Below, piece by piece: positions 11,443 through 13,096 of a stretch of DNA of 27,051 nt (within the stretch, counting starts at the first letter, position 1; each line of letters begins with the position of its first letter). Position numbers and translations under genes: made by a program. The stretch is taken from the IMG/VR virus record IMGVR_UViG_3300009170_000540, positions 1-27,051 of that record; one strand, given 5' to 3'. A model generated the notes under the pieces. That model was not told the DNA's origin. It did no database searches and saw nothing but the letters and a program-made list of their open reading frames with translations. The DNA is from a virus.

Positions 11443-11460
11443 AATTCTAAAAATAATCAC

Positions 11461-11600
11461 TTCCACGGGGTCGCAGGTGAGACGCGGGGTGGGGCCATGC
11501 CTGCCCCCATGCCTGCACCCGTGCGCGGCACCTGGACCGCCTCCGGTGGCCTGGTGGCCTGTTTCGAGGCAGACCAGGGTACGTCCGACAGCCTAGCTGT
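11461..11600. other. GC-rich insert between genes
   Basis: By hand count 87 of the 120 bases at 11461-11580 are G or C, against a clearly AT-rich background on both sides. It contains short direct repeats (CCATGCCTGC at about 11496-11505 and 11508-11517; GGTGGCCT twice at about 11545-11560) and the hairpin GTGC-GCG-GCAC. It is the start of a 238-base gap between the nucleotidyltransferase and the next gene. Probably acquired DNA; its source is unknown. Confidence 0.7.
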
Positions 11601-11631
11601 TAGATTAACCCTCTTTCTGATGTGCGTATAG
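11497..11631 (+). CDS. Possible 44-aa ORF in the GC-rich insert
   Basis: Open from ATG 11497 to TAG 11629-11631, reading MPAPMPAPVRGTWTASGGL and on to LFLMCV. It spans the GC-rich insert and the AT-rich sequence after it. Only a run of G residues precedes the ATG, so translation is doubtful. It may be a remnant of a longer gene. Confidence 0.2.
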   Translation: MPAPMPAPVRGTWTASGGLVACFEADQGTSDSLAVRLTLFLMCV

Positions 11632-11656
11632 TCACTACGCTAAAGTGACATTTTTT
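11631..11656 (+). terminator. Possible terminator upstream of the repeat-protein gene
   Basis: GTCACT (11631-11636) pairs with AGTGAC (11644-11649) around a 7-base loop, followed by A and six T. It would end transcription from the replication operon just before the 196-aa protein gene, isolating that gene and the RNA after it. The stem is short, so confidence is moderate. Confidence 0.5.
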
Positions 11657-11680
11657 GATCTAATACTTAAGGAATACAAA

Positions 11681-12271
11681 ATGTCGGTAGATATCAAGCA
11701 GAAATTTGAAGTCAATGGTCAGTTCTTTGACACAAAGGCTGAGGCAATTGATTTCCTTCGTACGCCGAAGATCCGTACTGCGCTTCTGGCAGTAACAGCG
11801 AATAAGGTTGAACTGACCGATTGGCTCATTGAAAATCGTGAGACAGTCGAGATGGCCTTTGAAACTGGTAAGATTCGTCGTGTTACGAAGAGTGAGCGTA
11901 AAAAGCTTGAAAAGGCTGTTGATGCGCTGGTTGAGCTCTTCGGTCACGAGCCTAAGATCGCTTTCCTAGTAGAGCATGCTGAGGCAATCAAGTCAAGCTT
12001 TAGTTGGCCTGGCGTCAAGCGTATGACTGATGAGGAGAAGACAACGCTTGCACGTAATTCTCTTGTTGCAGCAGCTGACGGTCGTGAAGACGTAGCTGAT
12101 TGGATTCTTGCGAACAAGGATGCTCTCCTAGCTGCGTATGCTGCAGGTATTGAGAAGCGTGAGCTAAACCCGGCTGCTGCCGAAGGCCTTGCTGCTTATC
12201 GTGCTAAGAAAGCGGCTGAGAAGGCTGCTGCTGAAGCTGTTGCTGCGGAAACTGCGGCTGCTGCAGGTTAA
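11681..12271 (+). CDS. Three-repeat helical protein with Ala/Lys-rich tail, 196 aa
   Basis: ATG 11681 follows AAGGA at 11668-11672; a GTG at 11645 lies in the terminator stem and is not preferred. After an N-terminal strand region (KFEVNGQFFDTKAEAIDFLR) there are three degenerate repeats of about 40 residues, near 41-80, 89-128 and 134-174. They share the pattern W(L/I)..N.e.(v/l)..a...G..(k/r)R (for example WLIENRETVEMAFETGKIRR and WILANKDALLAAYAAGIEKR). The tail after 174 is almost all Ala, Lys and Glu. The gene is more GC-rich and more regular in codon use than its AT-rich neighbours, which suggests high expression. It is followed directly by about 700 bases of structured non-coding sequence. 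I know no function; RNA or DNA binding is inference. Confidence 0.85.
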   Translation: MSVDIKQKFEVNGQFFDTKAEAIDFLRTPKIRTALLAVTANKVELTDWLIENRETVEMAFETGKIRRVTKSERKKLEKAVDALVELFGHEPKIAFLVEHAEAIKSSFSWPGVKRMTDEEKTTLARNSLVAAADGREDVADWILANKDALLAAYAAGIEKRELNPAAAEGLAAYRAKKAAEKAAAEAVAAETAAAAG

Positions 12272-12656
12272 TTACATTGGTAAGACCAGCAAACGGAGAA
12301 TGGGCAGTGTGTGACACATTGGAAACGTAACACGGATACCTCACCGGCCACTGTAAAGCTACGGGAAGATCCTCCGGCTTTTGCCGAAGATCAATCCTCG
12401 CGAACGTGTTTTCCCGAGCGTTGTAGCGAATCGGGATCTAATTATGACCTCACTATAAACTGATACGGAAGGATGCGAGTAGTTTTTGATCACTCCAAAG
12501 ATGAAAGGCCTACGTAAGTAAATATACTGTCTGTTGAGATGTCAGACTGAGGTCTTCTTCACCGGCTAGCGGTACGGCCAAAGAGATTATACCCTTAAAG
12601 TCCCTCTGGGATGAAGCTAAGGCTTAAGCTCTAATGTACCGCACAAATTCTTGATT

Positions 12657-12691
12657 CCGGGTTTCGTCATTGATACTGACCCGGTAATGAC
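12657..12691 (+). other. H-type RNA pseudoknot in the large RNA
   Basis: Stem 1 is CCGGGT (12657-12662) with ACCCGG (12679-12684). Stem 2 is GTCATT (12666-12671) with AATGAC (12686-12691). The loops are 3, 7 and 1 bases, and both stems are 6 perfect base pairs, so the geometry allows both to form together. Confidence 0.75.
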
Positions 12692-12943
12692 AGCCTCTTA
12701 GCCGTGGGTGAATATCAGTATACAAAACAATCAATGAAGGTTTCGTATGCAAACGGCTCTAAATTTAGCTTGTCGTGTAGCACAATGTGCAAAACGGCAA
12801 ACAGGCATGGGTATGCCTTTCTGCAAGCCTGATCAGCTTGACTAATCAGATAAAGTTATTATTATAGCTATAGATATGAGAATAACAACCCCACTTCAAA
12901 AACAATTTGGCTAGGTATCTCCTTCCCTAGTACAAGTTGTTTT

Positions 12944-12969
12944 ATGCCCCTTAATTGGGGCATTTTTTT
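12944..12969 (+). terminator. Rho-independent terminator of the large RNA
   Basis: ATGCCCC (12944-12950) pairs with GGGGCAT (12957-12963) around TTAATT, and the T run extends to 12969. It directly follows the long stem at 12901-12941 and precedes the ribosome binding site of the next gene. Confidence 0.92.
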
Positions 12970-12982
12970 CGGAGGATATTAA

Positions 12983-13096
12983 ATGAAAAGAAAACCGCGT
13001 AAGTTAACAGATTGGATTTGGACTATAATGTTTGTTGCTGTTGCAATAGGTCTTACGCTTCTTCTAAGTTGTAATCCAACAAAAGGAATACTATGA
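12983..13096 (+). CDS. Tiny putative lipoprotein, 37 aa
   Basis: ATG 12983 has GGAGG at 12971-12975. The product has a basic N-terminus (MKRKPRKLTD), one hydrophobic segment and LLLSC at residues 27-30, a lipobox-like site, followed by only NPTKGIL. If processed, the mature peptide would be eight residues. It could equally be a simple one-pass membrane peptide. It opens a run of four tiny genes, three of them membrane proteins. Confidence 0.55.
   Translation: MKRKPRKLTDWIWTIMFVAVAIGLTLLLSCNPTKGIL

Follow-up and report, generated by a model that had tools for sequence, protein, structure and literature searches.

A terminator-bounded noncoding region in a phage genome, with structured domains of which some recur, also rearranged, in other phages

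What does a phage genome encode in a long stretch between two genes where no protein is made? The window, a 27-kb viral record (27,051 nucleotides), carries genes for DNA polymerase A, an exonuclease, a T7-type primase/helicase, a B12-type ribonucleotide reductase and an ATP-dependent ligase. Related IMG/VR contigs (named L005, L007, etc.) served as relatives; they code for a T7-like RNA polymerase, and in most of them a further ORF, about 1550 aa long, weakly resembles RNA polymerases. The region in question lies between two phage genes, from the stop of the 5' ORF at 12271 to the end of the terminator U-run at 12969, so the span 12272-12969 given in a preliminary description of the sequence was correct. 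A tRNA-Lys and a tRNA-Leu are located 4.2 kb and 6.8 kb downstream, respectively. The region is noncoding, structured and closed by a conserved intrinsic terminator, and would give an RNA of about 670 nt. Its features and those directly upstream are as follows:

11599-11612, plus strand: promoter-like element GTTAGATTAACCCT, located 5' of the ORF before the RNA, with one mismatch to GTTAAnTTAACCCT
11681-12271, plus strand: ORF of 196 aa directly upstream of the RNA, all-helical; it marks the locus
12279-12352, plus strand: domain A, in which GGAGAAUGG pairs with CCUCACC; inner stem GUGU/ACAC
12357-12437, plus strand: domain B1, a pseudoknot of GCUAC (12358-12362) with GUAGC (12423-12427), the latter in the loop of CCCGA (12413-12417)/UCGGG (12431-12435)
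12446-12554, plus strand: domain B2, closing helix GACCUCA/UGAGGUC and inner hairpin GUCUG/CAGAC
12564-12642, plus strand: domain C, a pseudoknot of GGCU (12564-12567) with GGCC (12576-12579) around GCGGUAC (12569-12575)/GUACCGC (12636-12642), which encloses two stacked stems
12652-12696, plus strand: D, predicted H-type pseudoknot of CCGGGU/ACCCGG with GUCAUU/AAUGAC, from a single sequence
12697-12852, plus strand: E-F, predicted hairpins and a small pseudoknot of CAAGC/GCUUG with CUGAU/AUCAG (12824-12849), from a single sequence
12898-12943, plus strand: terminal hairpin, with UCUCCUU, complementary to Shine-Dalgarno sequences, in its loop
12944-12969, plus strand: intrinsic terminator, stem AUGCCCC/GGGGCAU followed by U7

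No supported gene was found in 12272-12969, where the longest ORF is 50 aa, and at the RNA locus of L005, the closest relative reaching it, no ORF exceeds 32 aa. The alignment of the window with L005 contained gap runs of 1, 11, 3, 1 and 7, 1, 13 bases, which exclude a conserved frame. The reported lack of a gene therefore held, and the conserved coding frame across homologues that had been named as counter-evidence was not found in the L005 alignment. The accompanying statement that the genome leaves almost no other gaps is only partly right: another 238 bases without a gene, in part 64.6% GC, span 11443-11680. Positions 11443-11600 of the window are noncoding (GC 64.6%), lie upstream of the promoter element and are kept in L005 and L007 (CGCAGGTGA, GCCTGGTGG); this may be another RNA or a replication origin. 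Relatives of the 196-aa ORF were present at 57 IMG/VR loci. The ORF had no Pfam match and no PHROG match at E<=0.001, and its AlphaFold2 model (mean pLDDT 81.7) had no PDB match at E<=0.001.

Helices were present, as noticed earlier, and there is more than one pseudoknot: B1, C, D (12657-12691) and F (12824-12849). Folding of the whole region gave z scores of -1.95 and -2.65, whereas 288-nt stretches from other parts of the window scored -0.57 +/- 1.31; the energy stood out only for C (z -2.2) and for the terminal hairpin together with the terminator (z -5.9). The number of 5+5-bp pseudoknots in the window was not clearly above that of shuffles. Positions 12272-12640 have a GC content of 46.6% and positions 12640-12900 one of 40.4%, compared with 39.0% for the whole window, but the upstream ORF is higher at 49.4%, and the claim that much of the region is richer in GC than the surrounding genes is only partly right. 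Because the folding energy is only mildly low, it is no proof of an RNA by itself, and the comparison with other phages decides.

In that comparison, a search of related phages followed by a covariation test as had been proposed, five phages (the window, L005, L007, L013 and L103) had domain C at this locus. In their alignment, which was built on the model's nested helices and leans towards them, 19 of 24 pairs were changed on both sides and 93.3% of cells were paired; none of 500 shuffles reached this, and slid controls were 25-41% paired. The pseudoknot, which is outside the covariance model, was kept in all five phages with one compensatory pair. The copies in L013 (E 7.5e-7) and L103 (E 4.6e-4) had been found with a three-sequence covariance model of C, and each occupies the same locus; L013 has the main helix GCCUAGC/GCUAGGC for GCGGUAC/GUACCGC and the pseudoknot GGUU/GACC for GGCU/GGCC. 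A possible sixth copy was detected at the same locus in L125 (E 0.1).

Domain B was compared between the window and L005, which has AGCCUUG/CAAGGCU and AGCUG/CAGCU at the B2 positions, that is, compensatory changes. Across B and C, 14 of 61 pairs were doubly changed between these two sequences, from which the structure itself had been derived, and none of 500 shuffles reached that count. Both L005 and L007 keep the CCCGA-GUAGC-UCGGG part of B1. The GCUAC arm was shared by the window and L007, which retains all four segments (GCUAC, CCCGA, GUAGC, UCGGG), and was displaced in L005. The B1 core motif CCCGAn(3-8)GTAGCRAATCGGG occurred in just six IMG/VR stretches, including L005's contig and L007. 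Exact-motif matches for C and B1 in IMG/VR beyond these two were rejected, since the rest of the module was absent and most of them looked coding.

Domain A was found further afield, in Cobetia phage Carin-5 (77% over 73 nt), where a terminator-like hairpin follows it on the 3' side. It also occurs in Vibrio phage 1.121.O, within a noncoding gap of 1378 bases (~1.4 kb) that holds a terminator. Over the three sequences 4 of 11 pairs were doubly changed, a count reached by 7 of 500 shuffles; a gapped motif of the domain had no match in IMG/VR. No relatives of D were found, and it therefore has no covariation; E-F was absent from L005 and was not found elsewhere. A 32-nt match to E in L008's contig lies inside an open frame of 162 codons and was regarded as chance.

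At the 3' end, the terminator reported earlier proved real: it is conserved in L005, with a compensatory pair. The sequence CTCCTT was present 5' of the terminator in 9 of 24 relatives, namely in 9 of the 15 with a gap longer than 60 nt and in none of those whose gap is shorter; of 16 other terminators, 1 is preceded by it. A last hairpin with a UCUCCUU-type loop, followed by the terminator, is thereby common to nine phages. The terminal loop may pair with Shine-Dalgarno sequences.

Among the relatives the domains are gained, lost and reordered. In L005, the parts corresponding to window 12356-12646 and 12896-12969 are kept and directly adjoin, the 5' element and 12647-12895 are missing, and the RNA is only about 360 nt long. 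The order is B-C in the window and L005 and C-B in L007. The L013 locus consists of a short pseudoknot, C and the terminal hairpin, that of L103 of at least five short pseudoknots and C, and that of L053 of a tRNA gene and then the terminal hairpin. We read the region as a mosaic of exchangeable, independently conserved domains, a feature that the preliminary description had missed. Since pieces recur reordered or in a quite different phage, phages seem to swap RNA parts as they do protein domains.

The vibriophages showed a comparable arrangement. The 3' part of the 1.121.O gap shows homology to the gap that separates ORF140 and ORF139 in ICP1, which yields that phage's most abundant transcript, of about 800 nt by RNA-seq (PMC7567579). 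A lncRNA upstream of lysis genes has been reported in ICP1 and some related phages, and the figure there shows the 1.121 lysis locus (PMC9040626). Segments of 1.121.O, 1.101.O, 1.161.O, 1.084.O, V6Aob, K470 and ICP1 match one another as a patchwork, with swapped order in at least one case (ICP1 186-351 and 509-570 match V6Aob 604-766 and 407-468). Vibriophage gaps of 0.9-2.1 kb (L331 380-2469, L330 820-2073, L332 972-2039, L333 1154-2018) are likewise patchwork kin of one another and of the ICP1 lncRNA gap. The window and the ICP1/vibriophage lncRNAs have in common a large terminated noncoding RNA region, a mosaic order and domain A in 1.121.O; the window RNA differs in following a replication-type gene cluster and in sharing A alone, with 1.121.O and not ICP1. 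The window and ICP1 themselves share no sequence at E<=0.3, and their link is indirect, via domain A of 1.121.O.

The motif GTTAAnTTAACCCT was located 5' of the upstream ORF in nearly all relatives listed, with 2-7 copies in each relative's genome that lie almost exclusively on one strand, and the relatives encode single-subunit RNA polymerases; it is likely the promoter of such a phage polymerase. No promoter-like site above chance was found between the ORF and the RNA. Because the sole supported promoter lies upstream of the ORF, a longer transcript probably runs through the ORF and has the RNA as its 3' part. Of the original proposal, a large structured RNA with its own terminator, the structure, with covariation, and the terminator are borne out, whereas its standing as a separate gene is uncertain.

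On balance we lean towards a stable, trans-acting noncoding RNA of about 670 nt whose domains (A, B, C, D-F and the terminal hairpin) fold independently and are mostly pseudoknotted. Transcription, probably by a phage polymerase, would start from the element at 11599, pass through the ORF and end at the terminator, and the RNA would then accumulate as a stable species, perhaps after processing. With less certainty, it might work in trans, each swappable domain binding host or phage factors at a site of its own, and the UCUCCUU of the terminal loop might be available for pairing with Shine-Dalgarno sequences, as are the C-rich loops of staphylococcal RNAIII.

The main alternative, though rather unlikely, is a cis-acting 3' UTR, in which the pseudoknots and the double terminal hairpin block exonucleases and stabilize the mRNA of the upstream ORF. 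In favor of this, the RNA begins at the stop codon, no promoter element other than the one 5' of the ORF is supported, and the small pseudoknot of the relatives' locus typically lies 5-29 nt past stop codons in more than 100 phage contigs. About 670 nt of elaborate, swappable domains, however, far exceeds what an exonuclease block needs, and the distantly linked ICP1 RNA, although so abundant, is not described as a 3' UTR (PMC7567579).

The small pseudoknot is a 26-nt H-type fold (GAC-CU-nRRYA-U-GUC-YNNAAAC-URYYY) present in more than 100 IMG/VR and 59 GTDB contigs, with sites at L007 13477-13507, L103 3650-4232, L008 19265-19325 and L049 4659 and 5039; the genes that it follows include one for a major head protein and several for Hsp20, and the motif was not found in the window. 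Covariation is strong in its S2, with 37 doubly changed cells vs 16.6 shuffled over 32 variants, its S1 is flipped to GUC:GAC in L103, L143 and L057, and no Rfam 15 match covered it in the 20 loci scanned. It is perhaps an mRNA 3'-end stabilizer, and its resemblance to coremin (xrRNA) is a lead only. The pseudoknot also occurs upstream of genes whose beginnings look like those of integrases (L153, L205, L215, L274, L275, L279, L288, L295 and others, several of them Weissella), in several copies in some of those genomes; the downstream gene in L151 was identified as an integrase. Near 4586 in L272 it adjoins a CRISPR-like repeat, perhaps inside a phage-derived spacer.

The suggested kinship with GOLLD and ROOL stood insofar as this is a large phage noncoding RNA, but cmscan with the Rfam models (the window at gathering thresholds, 12200-13050 at E<=5) placed it in neither class. 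The only Rfam matches were tRNAs or chance matches, mostly on the terminator, and a cobalamin riboswitch, prompted by the GCCACTGTAA stretch and the B12-type ribonucleotide reductase gene, had no match at E<=5. The GOLLD and ROOL models also had no match at E<=1 in ICP1 and 1.121.O. Both classes assemble nanocages (PMC12286853), and it is improbable that the window RNA forms RNA-only multimers in the same way. It resembles GOLLD in phage origin, length, pseudoknots and tRNA genes in the same genome, and ROOL in phage origin, pseudoknots and length (~660 nt); besides the missing covariance-model matches, domain content varies freely among the relatives, down to the short RNA of L005. The STAXI motif (RF01728) has repeated pseudoknots, as in L103, but the window domains differ from one another, and this motif also gave no Rfam match.

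Still less probable is that the domains are RNA decoys against host defenses, for example mimics of type III antitoxins. ToxI RNAs are pseudoknots, H-type like those predicted here, and an arms race would suit domain swapping and the run of short pseudoknots in L103; unlike ToxI, the window RNA has no direct or tandem repeats (12272-12975), no toxin or defense target was found, and there was no Rfam match. Chance folding of relict intergenic DNA without RNA function, to which the weak folding energy and the lack of relatives of D-F would be congenial, is very improbable and, as far as B, C and the terminal hairpin are concerned, already largely refuted, given covariation far above shuffled and slid controls and the conservation of the terminator and terminal hairpin.

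We know of no function established for the large phage noncoding RNAs GOLLD, ROOL and the ICP1 lncRNA. As a tentative wider proposal, such mosaic RNAs may consist of self-contained domains exchanged between unrelated phages at fixed, terminator-bounded loci, each acting on a different host factor. Domain exchange would explain why large phage RNAs align poorly and escape Rfam. The question becomes testable domain by domain, with A, B and C at 75-200 nt being of a size that suits structure determination, pull-down and deletion, and the arrangement suggests that phage genomes be searched by domain instead of by whole RNA.
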